A program made the position numbers and the translations under genes. The notes under the pieces were generated by a model. That model saw only the letters and a list, made by a program, of their open reading frames with translations. It was not told the origin of the DNA and searched no databases. This document shows, piece after piece, positions 55,637 through 62,215 of a stretch of 64,000 nt of DNA (the stretch's first letter is position 1; each line of letters starts with the position of its first letter). Origin of the DNA: Halomarina rubra (GTDB lineage: Archaea; Halobacteriota; Halobacteria; Halobacteriales; Haloarculaceae); the NCBI RefSeq assembly GCF_023699475.1, contig NZ_JALXFV010000005.1, positions 62,001 through 126,000 on the forward strand, read 5' to 3'.

Positions 55637-56263
55637 TCACGCCGTCGCCAGTCGCAGGAAGTTCGCCACCACGTCGTGTCCGCGTTCGGTGAGCACGCTC
55701 TCGGGGTGGAACTGGACGCACTCGATGGGAAACTCGCGGTGGCGCACACCCATCACGAGACCGTCGTCGGTGCGCGCGCTCACCGTGAAGCAGTCGGGGA
55801 CGTCGGTCGCCACGAGCGAGTGGTACCGCCCCGCGCGCAGCGGGGAAGGGAGGTCCGCGAACACGCCCTCGCCGTCGTGGTCGACGGCGTGGGCCTTCCC
55901 GTGGACCGGGTCCGGCGCACGGCCGACGCTCCCGCCGTAGGCGTAGACGGCCGCTTCGAGACCGAGGCAGACCCCGAGCGTCGGCACCTCGGGACTCACT
56001 TCTCGCAGGACGGCCATCGTCACGCCCACGTCGCGGGCGTTCTCGGGGTGACCCGGCCCCGGCGAGAGCACGACGGCGTCGGGGTCGTAGTCGCGCACGT
56101 CGGCGAGCGAGGCGGTGTTGCGGACGACCTCGGTGTCGGCGTAGTCGCCCACGTACTCCACGAGGTTGTACGTGAACGAGTCGAAGTTGTCGACGAACAG
56201 CACGCGCGGGCGGTCGACGACGCTCACACCGGGCGCTGCGGGTCGGTGACTCGGTTCGCTCAC
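55637..56263 (-). CDS. trpG: Anthranilate synthase glutamine amidotransferase subunit
   Basis: A 208-residue class I glutamine amidotransferase that supplies ammonia to TrpE. FVDNFDSFTYNLVEYV near residue 22 and VLSPGPGHP near residue 60 are family motifs. The nucleophile Cys lies in LGVCLGLEAAV near residue 90, and the His-Glu pair in CVQFHPESVLTERG near residue 185. The start is GTG at 56263, overlapping the trpE stop by four bases (GTGA), so the two are translationally coupled. It is the last gene of the trp operon seen here. Confidence 0.93.
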   Translation of the reverse strand: MSEPSHRPAAPGVSVVDRPRVLFVDNFDSFTYNLVEYVGDYADTEVVRNTASLADVRDYDPDAVVLSPGPGHPENARDVGVTMAVLREVSPEVPTLGVCLGLEAAVYAYGGSVGRAPDPVHGKAHAVDHDGEGVFADLPSPLRAGRYHSLVATDVPDCFTVSARTDDGLVMGVRHREFPIECVQFHPESVLTERGHDVVANFLRLATA

Positions 56264-58014
56264 TGCGACACCTCCGGCGCGTCGGGGTCGTCCGACCGGT
56301 CGGGACCGTCCGACCCGTCGTCGAGGACGACGTCGGTCTCCTCGATGGCCTCCAGCGCGGCGAGCACGCCCCGCATCTTCGATTCGGTCTCCTCGTACTC
56401 GCTGGCGGGGTCGGAGTCGGCGACGATGCCCGCGCCTGCCCGGACGGTCACGCGCTCGCCCTCGTCGCACTCCTCGACCGTCGCCGAGCGGATGACGATG
56501 GCGACGTCGGCGTCGCCGGTCCAGGAGTAGTAGCCGACGCCGCCGCCGTACAGCCCCCGTGGGGTGTCCTCTAGCTCGTCGACGAGTTCCATCGCCCGCA
56601 CCTTCGGCGCGCCCGAGAGCGTCCCGGCGGGGAACGACGCGCGGGTCGCGTCGAAGGCATCACACTCCGGCGCGAGTGTCCCCGTCACGGTCGACTCGAT
56701 GTGCTGGACGTGGCTGTACTTCAGGACGTTCATGAACTCCTCGACGCGGACGCTCCCCTGCTCCGAGACGACACGCACGTCGTTGCGCGCGAGGTCGACG
56801 AGCATCGTGTGTTCGGCACGCTCCTTCTCGTCGGCGAGCAACTCGCCGGCGAGGCGGCGGTCCTCGACGGGCGACGCCCCCCTGGGACAGGTGCCGGCGA
56901 TGGGGTTTGCGACGACGCGGTCGCCGCCGACCGAGACGAGCGTCTCGGGACTCGCCCCGACCAGACGGCGCTCGCCGAAGTCGAGTGCGAACATGTACGG
57001 CGAGGGGTTGACCTCGCGCAGGGAGGCGTACAGCCCGAGCGGGTCGATTTCCCCCGTCAGCTCCCGTTCCCGGGAGACGACCGCCTGATAGATGTCGCCG
57101 TCGAGGACATGCTCCTTGGCGGCACGGACGGCCTCCTCGTAGTCGTCCCGTGCTCCCGCGCGTTCGTCGGTCCGGACGAACCCGCCCAACTCGGGCGGCG
57201 TCGCGTCGGTCAGGACGGCCTCGACGCGCGCGGCCTCGGCGACCAGTGCGTCGTACAGTGCGTCGGCGTCCTCGTCGGGAGCCACGAGCGGCGTGAACAC
57301 GAGTTCGAGCGTGTCGGTCGCGTGGTCGAACGCCAGTACGCGGTCGGCCAGCACGAACTGCGCGTCGGGCGTGTCGGTGTCCGGGCGGTCGACGCCCACC
57401 TCCGCGAGGTGGAGGTCGTAGACGGCCTCGTAGGCGAGAAACCCGACCAGCCCGCCGGTGAGTCGCTGGCGGTCGCCCTCGGGGAACCCGCGGGTCGGCA
57501 CGTCCGGGAGCGCCCCGCGGAGTTCGTCCAGCGAGTCCGCCTCCGGGCCGTCGTCGAGCGCGAGGTCGGCGTAGCGGTCGTCGAACACCTCGACACCGCT
57601 CGCCGGTCCACGGTCACCCTCACGTTCGTCACCGGCAGCGTCGCCGGTCTCCAGCGGGACCTCTGGTCCCGCCCGGTTCGCGTGACCCACCGTCGCCACC
57701 GCCGCCGGGTCGACACAGACGTACGAGTAGCGGGCGTGGCGCTCGGCCTCGGCGTCGGTCGTCTCGGCGAGGTCCGCTGACGGCGCGAACGCGCCGTTCG
57801 GGTCGGAGGAGGCGACCTTCTCGGCACTCTCCAGCAGGAAGCCGTAGTCGGTCGTCGCCGCGTCGCGGAGCGTCGCGTACGCGGTCAGGGGTTCGACGGC
57901 CACGTCGAGAGTGGCCGTCGCGTGAACGACCGCTCGTCCCTCGTCGTCGCCGTCGACCTGTTCGCGAAAGCGCTCGCGCGAGCAGTCGAGCGCCCGGTCG
58001 GCAGAGCCACTCAC
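56260..58014 (-). CDS. trpE: Anthranilate synthase component I
   Basis: A 584-residue chorismate-using enzyme. The motif LLESAEK near residue 60 is the Trp feedback-binding LLES element. NPIAGTCPRG near residue 365 and FPAGTLSGAPKVRAMELVDELE near residue 462 are the chorismate-binding signatures, so the enzyme should be active and inhibited by Trp. An acidic stretch around 120-155 and a DDGSDGPDRSDDPD tail are halophilic additions. It starts with GTG overlapping the trpF stop (GTGA). Order trpD-trpF-trpE-trpG is common in haloarchaea. Confidence 0.95.
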   Translation of the reverse strand: MSGSADRALDCSRERFREQVDGDDEGRAVVHATATLDVAVEPLTAYATLRDAATTDYGFLLESAEKVASSDPNGAFAPSADLAETTDAEAERHARYSYVCVDPAAVATVGHANRAGPEVPLETGDAAGDEREGDRGPASGVEVFDDRYADLALDDGPEADSLDELRGALPDVPTRGFPEGDRQRLTGGLVGFLAYEAVYDLHLAEVGVDRPDTDTPDAQFVLADRVLAFDHATDTLELVFTPLVAPDEDADALYDALVAEAARVEAVLTDATPPELGGFVRTDERAGARDDYEEAVRAAKEHVLDGDIYQAVVSRERELTGEIDPLGLYASLREVNPSPYMFALDFGERRLVGASPETLVSVGGDRVVANPIAGTCPRGASPVEDRRLAGELLADEKERAEHTMLVDLARNDVRVVSEQGSVRVEEFMNVLKYSHVQHIESTVTGTLAPECDAFDATRASFPAGTLSGAPKVRAMELVDELEDTPRGLYGGGVGYYSWTGDADVAIVIRSATVEECDEGERVTVRAGAGIVADSDPASEYEETESKMRGVLAALEAIEETDVVLDDGSDGPDRSDDPDAPEVSQ

Positions 58015-58640
58015 GAGTCGACCCTCCGAACGCGGCGAACGAACCTCGCCATCGCGTCGGCGTCCTTCTCGCCGGGGGCCGCCTCGATGCCGCTGGCGAC
58101 GTCTACGGCGAACGGACCGACCGTCGTGACGGCTTCGGCGACGTTCTCGGGGGTCAACCCACCCGCGAGCACGACGGGTGCGTCGAGCGTCTCAACCAGC
58201 TCTCGGGTACGCGACCAGTCGTGTGTCTCGCCGGTGCCGCCCGCGCCGTCGGCGTCCGTCGAGTCCACGAGGACGGCGTCGGCCGCGGTGGCGTAGGCGG
58301 CGTGGTCGCCCGCGAGGTCCGTCGCGGCGACGACCCGGGCGTCGGTGGTCGCCGCGAGGTCCGACACCGCGGCGGGGTCGAGACCGTGGACCTGGACGAC
58401 GTCCGTCCCTACGCGGTCGGCCAGTGTGGCCGCCTCGGCGGGACCGTCGGGCATCGTCACCAGCACCGTCGTGACGAACGGCGGGACGTCCTCGACGAGC
58501 GTGGCCGCCGCGTCGGGAGCGAGTTCGCGTGGCGTGTCGACGGGGACGTCGACGACGAACCCGAGCGCGTCCGCGCCGGCGGCGACGGCCGCGTCGCGTT
58601 CGCCCGCTCACGTGATGCCACAGAGTTTGGCGCGCGTCAT
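58011..58640 (-). pseudogene. trpF: Phosphoribosylanthranilate isomerase, interrupted by an in-frame stop
   Basis: The frame from ATG 58640 to the TGA at 58013-58011 is 210 codons, the normal size of TrpF. It begins M-T-R-A-K-L-C-G-I-T and then meets TGA at codon 11 (58610-58608). After that AGERDAAVAAGADALGFVVDVP, then PPFVTTVLVTMPDG and the C-terminal GGLTPENV and DVASGIE phosphate-binding motifs are intact. One base change (CGA Arg to TGA) would explain it. The catalytic Cys is in the KLCG motif before the stop, so restart downstream would lack it. Either a recent loss or a sequencing error. Start ATG abuts the trpD stop. Confidence 0.85.
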
Positions 58641-59648
58641 CTACGCGGAGACCGTGACGCCACACAGAGCGTCGAGTTTCTCGGCGGCCGCCCCCGAGTC
58701 GATGGCCTCGCGGGCGCGGTCGACGGCGTCGGCGAGCGTCTCGGCCTCGCCCGCGACGTAGATGGCCGCTCCGGCGTTCGCGAGGATGATGTCTCGCTTG
58801 GGGCCGGTCACCTCGCCGGTGACGATGCCACGCAGGTCGGCGGCGTTCTCTGCGGGGGTGCCACCCGCGACGGCGGAGACCGGCGCGCTGTCGAGTCCGA
58901 GGTCGGCGGGCGTGACGGTGAACTCCTCGATGTCGTCACCGCGGACCTCGGCGGCGACCGTCTCGCCGTGGAGGCAGATCTCGTCCATCCCGTCGCCGTG
59001 GACGACGAGTGCCCGCTCGACGGGGAGGTTCGCGAGCGCACGCGCGAGCACGGGGACGAGGTCGGGGTCGTAGACGCCCACGACCTGCGCGTCCGCCCCG
59101 GCGGGGTTCGTCAGCGGCCCGAGGACGTTGAACACCGTGCGAATCCCGAGTTCGCGTCGCGGACCGATGACGGCCTCCATCGCCGGGTGGAACACCGGCG
59201 CGAGCATGAACCCGATGCCGCGCTCCTCGATGGCGCGTTCGACGGCCGGCGGTTCGGCGGCCACGTCGACGCCCACCTCGTCGAGCACGTCCGCGCTCCC
59301 GGAGTTCGAGGAGACCGAGTAGTTGCCGTGTTTGGCGACGGCGATACCCGCGCCCGCGGCGACGACGGCGCTGGTCGTCGAGACGTTGATCGTGTCGTAG
59401 TCGTCGCCGCCCGTCCCGCAGGTGTCGACCAGCGGCGTCCGGTCGGGGTCGATGGTCCGCGCGGCGTCGCGCATCCCCTCGGCGAACCCGGCGATCTCCG
59501 TCTCGGTCTCGCCTTTCGCGCGCAGCGCCGTCAGCAACGCACCGATCTGGGCCTCGCTCGCCCCGTCGAACACCGCCGTCGACGCTTCGCGCGCTTCCGC
59601 CTGGGTCAGGTCCGCGCCGTCCGTGACGCGCTCGATGTAGTTCATCAT
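58641..59648 (-). CDS. trpD: Anthranilate phosphoribosyltransferase
   Basis: A 335-residue enzyme that joins anthranilate to PRPP, the second step of Trp synthesis. DTCGTGGDDYDTINVST near residue 78 is the PRPP-binding Gly-rich loop, and KHGNYSVSSNSGSADVLDEVGV near residue 106 the anthranilate and Mg site. ARALANLPVERALVVHGDGMDE near residue 205 is also typical. It is the first gene of the operon, with two adjacent ATG codons (59648, 59645). Its promoter contains two TGTACA boxes. Confidence 0.95.
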   Translation of the reverse strand: MMNYIERVTDGADLTQAEAREASTAVFDGASEAQIGALLTALRAKGETETEIAGFAEGMRDAARTIDPDRTPLVDTCGTGGDDYDTINVSTTSAVVAAGAGIAVAKHGNYSVSSNSGSADVLDEVGVDVAAEPPAVERAIEERGIGFMLAPVFHPAMEAVIGPRRELGIRTVFNVLGPLTNPAGADAQVVGVYDPDLVPVLARALANLPVERALVVHGDGMDEICLHGETVAAEVRGDDIEEFTVTPADLGLDSAPVSAVAGGTPAENAADLRGIVTGEVTGPKRDIILANAGAAIYVAGEAETLADAVDRAREAIDSGAAAEKLDALCGVTVSA

Positions 59649-59678
59649 GGTTGGTAGATGAGCGTAGTTGGCTTATGA

Positions 59679-59703
59679 TGTACAACTGTGTACACCGACT
59701 TAA
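59679..59703 (-). promoter_or_regulatory. trp promoter: TATA element and two TGTACA (TRP-box) palindromes
   Basis: TGTACA occurs at 59679-59684 and 59689-59694, 10 bp apart. A TTAAGT element on the minus strand (59698-59703) is upstream of them; a start about 27 bp further would fall near 59674. The boxes thus lie between TATA and transcript start, where a repressor would block transcription. TGTACA is the TRP box of TrpY in Methanothermobacter. Confidence 0.7.
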
Positions 59704-59832: not shown

Positions 59833-59907
59833 GGGTTGGTGGTCTAGGCTGGTTATGACACCTCCTTGACATGGAGGAGGTCGGCAGTTCAAATCTGCCC
59901 CAACCCA
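59833..59907 (+). tRNA. tRNA-Val (GAC anticodon)
   Basis: A 75-nt cloverleaf. The acceptor GGGTTGG pairs with CCAACCC before discriminator A. The D arm contains GTCTAGGCTGGTTATGAC, the anticodon loop TTGACAT carries GAC, and the T arm is GGCAGTTCAAATCTGCC. No intron is present and CCA is not encoded. Its 3' end is repeated downstream. Confidence 0.94.
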
Positions 59908-60042
59908 CTTTTCGACGGCGTTACACGACGAGCGGAGCGAGGAGGCTCGCCGTCGAAATGGAGTACCAGATTTGAACCAGGGAGGTCGCGCGCAGCGAAG
60001 TGAGCACGTCCGACCGGGGTTCAAATCTGCCCCAACCCACTT
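59887..60042. repeat. Direct repeat of the tRNA-Val 3' end (candidate attachment sites)
   Basis: The 24 bases GTTCAAATCTGCCCCAACCC-ACTT at 59887-59910 recur exactly at 60019-60042, 132 bp downstream. An 11-bp inverted copy of the T-loop part (CAGATTTGAAC) lies at 59967-59977. Such 3'-end copies are typical of att sites left by integrases at tRNA genes. No integrase gene is in the window. The rest of the 59908-60307 gap holds no gene. Confidence 0.7.
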
Positions 60043-60307: not shown

Positions 60308-62215
60308 ATGGGAACTGCAACGCAGAGTATCGAAGACTCGTCCTTGCCGGCCGGTGAGTGTGGTTACGTGACCGCCGACGACGGGAGGCCACTCGACGAC
60401 GAGAACTGGTCACCGGGGACTGATTCGGCCGTACTGATCTGTCGTCGGCCGAAGTGGAACGACACCGGCCACTGTGTGTGGCATGCAGACGAGGAACAGA
60501 AGCCGGCCAGCGAACTCCTCGCTTCGCGGAGTGAGCTGCCAGAGAGACTCGACGGAGCCGTTCTCCGAGGTGTCTCGTTCGACACCAACGTCTCGTTCGC
60601 CGACTGTAGTCTCGTCGAGGCAGACTTCTGTAACGCGAGGTTGTGGGGCGTTGATTTCTCGGACGCGACGCTTACCGGGGCCAAGTTACACACCGCAGAC
60701 TTCCACCAGGCGACGCTGGACCGAGCGGATTTCGAAAGTGCAGATCTCACGAGGGCCTACCTCGTGGAGGCGGATGCGACGGGAGCGACCTTTCGGTACG
60801 CGACTCTCGACGACACGATACTCCGAGAGGCGACGTTCGACGAGTCGTCGTTCGCCTATGCGACCGGTGTGAACACCGACATGAGCAAGTCGTCGTTCGA
60901 GAACACCGACTTCTGGCGGGCGGAGCTACGGTTCGCGACGTTTCGGAAGGCGACCCTCGAAGGGGCGGAGTTCGCAAAGGCCAACCTCAAGCGAGCGAGC
61001 ATGTGGAAGGCCGATCTCTCGAAGACGTCGTTCTGGCAGGCGAATCTCAGGGGAGGCGACCTCTGGCAGACGGGACTGGCGGGGACGGATTTCTCGGAGG
61101 CGGACCTGTCGTGGGCACGGCTCTCGTACCAGAACCTCGACGGGGTCGACTTATCCGGCGCGAAACTCCGCTGGACAGATTTCCGGGAGTCTCGTGTCAC
61201 CGGGGCGCGGTTCCGACGTGCAGACCACACGGGCAGGGTACAGGTCGCAGATACCCACCGAGCGAACTTCGAACTGGCGGACTTCAGCGGTGGTCTCTTC
61301 CGAGCCGATTCGTTTGCGAAGGCCCGACTCGACCGAGCGAACTTCACGGACGCGGACCTCACGCGTGTCGACTTCACGGACGCGTCACTTCGCCGGGCCG
61401 ACTTCACCGGAGCGACGCTCTTCGAGACGACGTTCACCGGAGCGGACGCGCAGAATGCCTCGTTCTCGACGGCGAACTGCCGCCGCACACGGTTCGACGA
61501 CGCTACGATTCACGCCGCCGAGTTCGGCGAGACGCTCGTCGATGCGGCGACCGACGTATCGGTTCACTACCCCGAAACCGACCCGTGGATAGGTCTCGGA
61601 GAAGCCGAGCAGGCCGAACGATGGTTGCAGTCGGCTTCGACACATCGAATCGTCCACTCGTTGCTCATGCGGAGTGGTCGAGTCGAGGATGCTCGACGCG
61701 AGAAGCACTACCTCGCCGAACAACGGGCGAGAATCGAACACGCAAAACTGACCGACGCGAGGAATCGCTGGACGCTCGAACTGACCAACGCCGCGATGGT
61801 TCTGGGCGAACGGCCGATTCTGTTAGTTCCGGTCGTCGCGGTGGTTTCCGTCGCGTTCCTCGTCCTGTACTCCCTCGTCGGCTATCCGAGAGCGACCCCC
61901 TTGAACGAGCTTCCAGCGCTCTGGCTGTTCAGCCTCGGCGTACTCCTCGACGGCCCGTACTCCATCGTTCAGGACCTGGACCCGTCCGGACTGGCCGAAG
62001 CAGCCCGCTCGCTGTTCGTGGCAGTGGGACAAGAGGTGGGTGTCCCCACGACGAGGCCGTCAGACGGAATCGGCGTGACGATCGAGATGACTGAGCGACT
62101 GGTCGGCGGCCTTCTCGTCGTCCCGTTCGTACTGTTGTTCCTCCAGCGACTGCGCACATACCTCAGTGTCAAGGAACAAGGCGCAGGGTTTGTCTCCTGG
62201 CTACGCGGCCGATAA
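60308..62215 (+). CDS. Pentapeptide-repeat protein with membrane C-terminus
   Basis: A 635-residue protein. The N-terminus has a small Cys/His module (ECGYV near 17, ICRRP near 44, HCVWH near 55) seen in haloarchaeal pentapeptide proteins. Residues about 75-400 are A(D/N)LxX-type pentapeptide repeats forming a right-handed quadrilateral beta-helix. A helical region follows (GEAEQAERWLQSAS...HYLAEQRARIEHAKLTDARNRW). Two membrane spans (about 502-524 and 597-615) flank a hydrophobic loop, a layout like an ion channel pore but without a K+ filter signature. Codons use more A and T than in neighbours. It sits right after the tRNA-Val repeat, suggesting horizontal transfer. Function unknown, perhaps a membrane effector. 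Confidence 0.82.
   Translation: MGTATQSIEDSSLPAGECGYVTADDGRPLDDENWSPGTDSAVLICRRPKWNDTGHCVWHADEEQKPASELLASRSELPERLDGAVLRGVSFDTNVSFADCSLVEADFCNARLWGVDFSDATLTGAKLHTADFHQATLDRADFESADLTRAYLVEADATGATFRYATLDDTILREATFDESSFAYATGVNTDMSKSSFENTDFWRAELRFATFRKATLEGAEFAKANLKRASMWKADLSKTSFWQANLRGGDLWQTGLAGTDFSEADLSWARLSYQNLDGVDLSGAKLRWTDFRESRVTGARFRRADHTGRVQVADTHRANFELADFSGGLFRADSFAKARLDRANFTDADLTRVDFTDASLRRADFTGATLFETTFTGADAQNASFSTANCRRTRFDDATIHAAEFGETLVDAATDVSVHYPETDPWIGLGEAEQAERWLQSASTHRIVHSLLMRSGRVEDARREKHYLAEQRARIEHAKLTDARNRWTLELTNAAMVLGERPILLVPVVAVVSVAFLVLYSLVGYPRATPLNELPALWLFSLGVLLDGPYSIVQDLDPSGLAEAARSLFVAVGQEVGVPTTRPSDGIGVTIEMTERLVGGLLVVPFVLLFLQRLRTYLSVKEQGAGFVSWLRGR

Follow-up and report, generated by a model that had tools for sequence, protein, structure and literature searches.

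The tryptophan biosynthesis genes trpD, trpF, trpE and trpG of Halomarina rubra lie on the minus strand of the window analyzed here (the whole stretch of 64,000 nucleotides from contig NZ_JALXFV010000005.1; Table 1). It had been predicted that two TGTACA palindromes, separated by a 10-bp step, are located between a TATA-like element and the start of trpD, and this arrangement was confirmed at 59679-59694, where TGTACAACTGTGTACA has the form TGTACA-N4-TGTACA with box starts 10 bp apart. On the minus strand, TTAAG is followed by TGTACA, CAGT, the second TGTACA, 30 nt and the trpD ATG (59648), and the region upstream of the gene reads CGACGACAACAGGGTTAAGTCGG-TGTACA-CAGT-TGTACA-TCATAAGCCAACTACGCTCATCTACCAACC-ATG. 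Together, the two boxes make up the best-preserved half of an element with four positions in a 10-bp register. Genome-wide statements in this study are based on sequence-model and pattern searches. Across the genome (4.07 Mb), TGTACA pairs within 16 bp were detected just twice; one of these pairs (TGTACATGTACA, contig C9) is inside a transporter ORF, and the pair in the trpD promoter is the sole intergenic one. When 2 mismatches were allowed in TGTACA-N4-TGTACA, 29 places were found versus 17 for the reversed control, and these matches are mostly noise.

Table 1. Features of the trpDFEG operon and its upstream region (window coordinates)
Feature	Position	Strand	Remark
TATA-like element TTAAG, preceded by BRE-like CGACAACAG	59699..59703	-	CGACAcgcTTAAg conserved in 80 loci
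TRP-box-like site 1, TGTACA, directly downstream of TATA-like element	59689..59694	-	TGTAC conserved, with equal spacing to TATA, in most of the 80 haloarchaeal loci
TRP-box-like site 2, TGTACA, next 10-bp step	59679..59684	-	TGTNCA kept in relatives
Register position 3, degenerate, AAGCCA	59669..59674	-	Only C and A match the box; C of alignment column 27 invariant in 38 relatives
Register position 4, degenerate, CGCTCA	59659..59664	-	cGTaCA in most relatives
trpD, anthranilate phosphoribosyltransferase	58641..59648	-	First gene of the operon
trpF	58011..58640	-	In-frame TGA at 58608-58610 (codon 11)
trpE, anthranilate synthase component I	56260..58014	-	
trpG, anthranilate synthase component II	55637..56262	-	Start approximate

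Two other observations were made in this part of the window. The TGA in trpF (MTRAKLCGIT*AGERD...) stands where close relatives carry a Ser codon (TCG). Either a genuine nonsense mutation or an error in the sequence may account for it, and in the former case the strain may be a tryptophan auxotroph. On the other side of the trpD promoter, the 3' end of a tRNA-Val (GTTCAAATCTGCCCCAACCCACTT, 59888-59911) is repeated about 130 bp downstream (about 60017-60042), as at the integration site of a mobile element, and next to the tRNA a protein of 635 aa is encoded that resembles pentapeptide-repeat proteins and has membrane segments at its C terminus (60308-62215).

We aligned 80 haloarchaeal trpD loci upstream of the start. 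Boxes of the TGTAC-N5-TGTNCA type at the 10-bp register were present in all 80 promoters, and the element, CGACAcgcTTAAgtcga-TGTACnnATTTGTnCATtacAAgaCgaaaacgTaCATtGGTG, had no internal gaps in any of them except L004. In 69 of the 80 loci, box 1 was located 9 nt after the start of TTA. Invariant or near-invariant bases recurred every 10 bp, with the C of the box in columns 7, 17, 27 and 37. The expectation that the boxes would recur upstream of trp genes in other haloarchaea thus held for the boxes themselves, but not for the perfect TGTACA pair, which occurred in only 15 of 81 haloarchaeal trpD promoters; the exact pair therefore represents the well-preserved version of an operator that is otherwise more degenerate. 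Boxes 1 and 2 match TGTACA fully or almost fully in H. rubra and the genomes closest to it, in which positions 3 and 4, like a GGTG in front of the start codon, have decayed. A sequence model of this operator (R1) was also run over 30 related genomes. Its top match was the trpD promoter in 24 of these genomes, and no other recurrent site was found among the 30.

A second operator was found at the trpCBA operon. In 26 relatives, including H. rubra, the trpCBA promoters carry three boxes with an exact 10-bp period, following the pattern CGCAAGnCTTA-TGTACAnatn-aGTcCaTtan-tGTACAata-ATG; the array of H. rubra reads CGCAAGCCTTA-CGTACAGACT-AGTCCATCGA-AGTACAATG-ATG. Of 194 near-complete haloarchaeal genomes, 182 had exactly one match (E <= 0.05) to a model of this array (R2), which was trained on trpC promoters only. 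Because the training sequences came from the 30 relatives, matches there are partly circular, and we used held-out genomes with known trpC position instead (G031-G034, G036, G038, G040, G041 and G043-G046); the match was located just upstream of trpC in all 12 that were checked. In the 30 relatives, R2 also recovered several trpD operators as weak secondary matches despite its trpC-only training. No other recurrent significant targets of R1 or R2 were found in the searched genomes, and the boxes are thus restricted to the two trp operons. In two divergent haloarchaea in which trpC and trpB are apart (G025 and G027), the array precedes trpB instead. The trpD promoter of G025 has three consecutive boxes, TGTACACCAA-AGTACAGAGT-TGTACA.

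TGTACA boxes over trp promoters are known from Methanothermobacter thermautotrophicus, in which TrpY binds TRP boxes and represses trp when tryptophan is present (PMC6737238). A TrpY homologue had been called for in the H. rubra genome, and one was indeed identified by an ACT-domain search of the genome: a single-copy protein of 167 aa (G000:C12:412322-412822) that matches NCBIfam NF053754 (TrpY_fam) with 242 bits, above the cut-off of 180 (E 2.7e-72). Pfam DUF5612 (PF18462), which had been guessed to be a marker of TrpY, gave no match in the genome search, and Pfam ACT matches of the protein were below cut-off. The best of five AlphaFold models had a mean pLDDT of 86 (55-68 for the others). 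It predicts helices at residues 13-25, 44-50 and 55-67, which form a helix-turn-helix (HTH) region of about residues 13-67, and a C-terminal beta-alpha-beta-beta-alpha-beta arrangement at 94-166 with the ACT fold. The nearest PDB structures are amino-acid-binding ACT domains, e.g., those of IlvN and PGDH. The predicted fold thus combines an HTH with an amino-acid-sensing domain. The family is present in 29 of the 30 relatives, in all 194 haloarchaea and, across the phylum, in 127 of 128 sampled genomes (126 above the cut-off). The H. rubra gene is on the contig of trpD, at a distance of about 290 kb, and has no trp genes beside it. In upstream regions of haloarchaeal trpY genes no box array was found, with the exception of one weak case in a single haloarchaeon (L162 of G026), in which TGTACAGATATGTTC overlaps the trpY start codon; this site is possibly an isolated case of autoregulation or a chance occurrence.

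The boxes were then followed over the phylum with a three-box matrix that was trained on haloarchaea only and slid over 40 trp loci (7-17 kb) of non-haloarchaeal families. The trp promoter region was the best site of the locus in 26 of the 40 genomes, and 10-bp steps outscored steps of 8, 9, 11 and 12 in all 26, clearly so in most. With these, arrays at trp operons extend to 13 further families of the phylum and to classes other than that of the haloarchaea; for example, the trp promoter of G304 reads TATGTACGTATTTGTACATTACAGAACATAAGTG and is close to the haloarchaeal trpD operator. Among complete trp operons, 26 of the 28 genomes whose TrpY is canonical (VDRRVVD or close variants) had arrays, versus none of 8 in which TrpY is missing (L283 and L284, family f24) or divergent, with VDRKVV and other HTH changes (L280, L281 and L310-L313, families f19 and f22). 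Four loci in which trpC is apart from the operon (L282, L296, L315 and L316) were uninformative and were left out of this contrast. The association between array and TrpY type gave a Fisher p of 1.5e-6 by genome and 0.006 by family, the latter being the fairer figure because genomes of one family are not independent; it reflects 0 of 3 versus 13 of 14 families, hence few independent lineages, and the grouping by TrpY motif was noticed after the arrays had been scored. TrpY is near-universal in the phylum, including lineages that have no arrays, and family f32 has canonical TrpY and no clear array. In family f22 (L280 and L281), trpY is divergent from and adjoins trpC, much like the arrangement in Methanothermobacter, its HTH motif is VDRKVVVSAI, and there is no TGTACA array; TrpY of this family may recognize a different box.

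The haloarchaeal arrangement resembles that of M. thermautotrophicus in having TGTACA boxes over trp promoters, trp biosynthesis genes as the target, and a TrpY-family protein with an HTH and a predicted ACT domain. There are also clear differences. In Methanothermobacter, trpY faces trpE and is autoregulated through the boxes; in haloarchaea, by contrast, trpY is not linked to trp genes, and nearly all genomes examined have no boxes at the trpY promoter. In addition, haloarchaeal boxes cover two separate trp operons and occur as 3-4 degenerate repeats with strict 10-bp spacing. Since H. rubra lacks the linked, divergent and autoregulated trpY of the founding example, its system is best described as TrpY/TRP-box-like and not as identical to that example. 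Haloarchaeal homologues of TrpY have been listed, without study (PMC6737238), and the open-access literature searched yielded no account of a trp operator in haloarchaea. The same two operons, trpCBA and trpDFEG, are known to respond together: both are induced in Halobacterium salinarum without aromatic amino acids (PMC4162585), and both depend, indirectly, on TrmB in Haloarcula hispanica (PMC10817205). No operator is described in either paper.

Several other explanations of the TGTACA pair were considered. That it arose by chance has practically no probability left. TGTACA is slightly more frequent than expected in the window (7 versus 2.7), which would make an accidental pair somewhat easier, but none of 100 dinucleotide shuffles contained a pair within 20 bp, of which the window has one, and conservation of the same position in 80 relatives rules this origin out. 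It is also very improbable that the element consists only of core promoter and ribosome-binding sequences (BRE, TATA, initiator, and GGTG before the ATG) that no regulator reads. The conserved sequence does sit between TATA and ATG, the boundary of the boxes overlaps the presumed core promoter, so that part of the conservation may reflect promoter function, and the GGTG, which is lost in H. rubra while the boxes persist, could presumably pair with the 3' end of 16S rRNA. However, boxes with the same 10-bp period are found in the otherwise different trpCBA promoters, where they begin near the ATG. They also recur at trp operons over the phylum, and the models gave no further recurrent significant location in the genomes; in addition, Halobacterium regulates its trp operons in vivo (PMC4162585). 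We therefore rejected the core promoter as the sole explanation.

A genuine trp operator could also be recognized by a protein other than TrpY, for instance an Lrp-family member like LrpA2 or a TrmB homologue; we consider this unlikely, although less so than the preceding explanations. Induction of LrpA2 in H. salinarum reaches 14.9-fold when aromatic amino acids are missing, and the protein was suggested, though only suggested, as a regulator (PMC4162585), and TrmB affects both Haloarcula trp operons. Moreover, TK1227 of Thermococcus kodakarensis, a TrpY-family protein like the haloarchaeal one and 42% identical to M. thermautotrophicus TrpY, neither binds nor regulates the trp promoter of that organism, whose trp operon is controlled by activation through Tar (TK0271) (PMC6737238); membership in the TrpY family alone therefore proves nothing. 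On the other hand, neither TrmB binding nor a TrmB motif was detected in the vicinity of the Haloarcula trp operons, which calls for a further factor there (PMC10817205), the box is the known TrpY box, and the arrays co-vary with the presence of TrpY and with its HTH type. The same co-occurrence of box and regulator family over the phylum disfavors a convergent solution, which the original prediction had offered as the alternative to TrpY-type control.

The reading that we prefer, with a probability of roughly 0.78, is a TrpY-type, tryptophan-responsive repressor system whose candidate regulator is unlinked to the trp genes and apparently not autoregulated. The earlier interpretation as TrpY-type control is thereby supported; the binding of TrpY to the boxes, tryptophan as the effector and the negative sign of regulation are what we infer by analogy with Methanothermobacter and from the Halobacterium expression data. 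The TGTACA pair would then be the upstream half of the trpDFEG operator, working together with an independent trpCBA operator, and in both cases the row of boxes would follow the TATA element directly and cover the presumed transcription start. Spaced every 10 bp, the boxes should be on one face of the helix. They are most likely bound by the TrpY-family protein, whose gene is located elsewhere in the genome. At high tryptophan levels, the amino acid may be bound by the ACT domain and favor cooperative binding of TrpY along the boxes, with dimers on successive boxes between TATA and the start site, and tryptophan-bound TrpY may in this way obstruct RNA polymerase or TFB/TBP. At low tryptophan levels, both promoters would be open. 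More broadly, and with somewhat less confidence, we think it probable that one ancestral TrpY/TRP-box regulon, with cooperative binding to 10-bp tandem boxes on one DNA face, controls tryptophan synthesis throughout the phylum that comprises haloarchaea and their methanogen relatives, that it was lost or rewired where the recognition helix of TrpY changed (the VDRK lineages), and that in haloarchaea TrpY became a repressor that acts in trans on two operons and is not autoregulated.

Control of trp genes in haloarchaea has been described as a response to aromatic amino acids in Halobacterium, and the factor acting at the Haloarcula promoters was reported as unknown. Our analysis identifies an operator for each of the two operons, together with a candidate regulator that is encoded in single copy and occurs in all haloarchaea tested, and the question of the regulator thereby becomes a simple genetic test in model organisms. 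A further implication is that a repressor system that is among the few well studied in archaea may be old and shared by the whole phylum.
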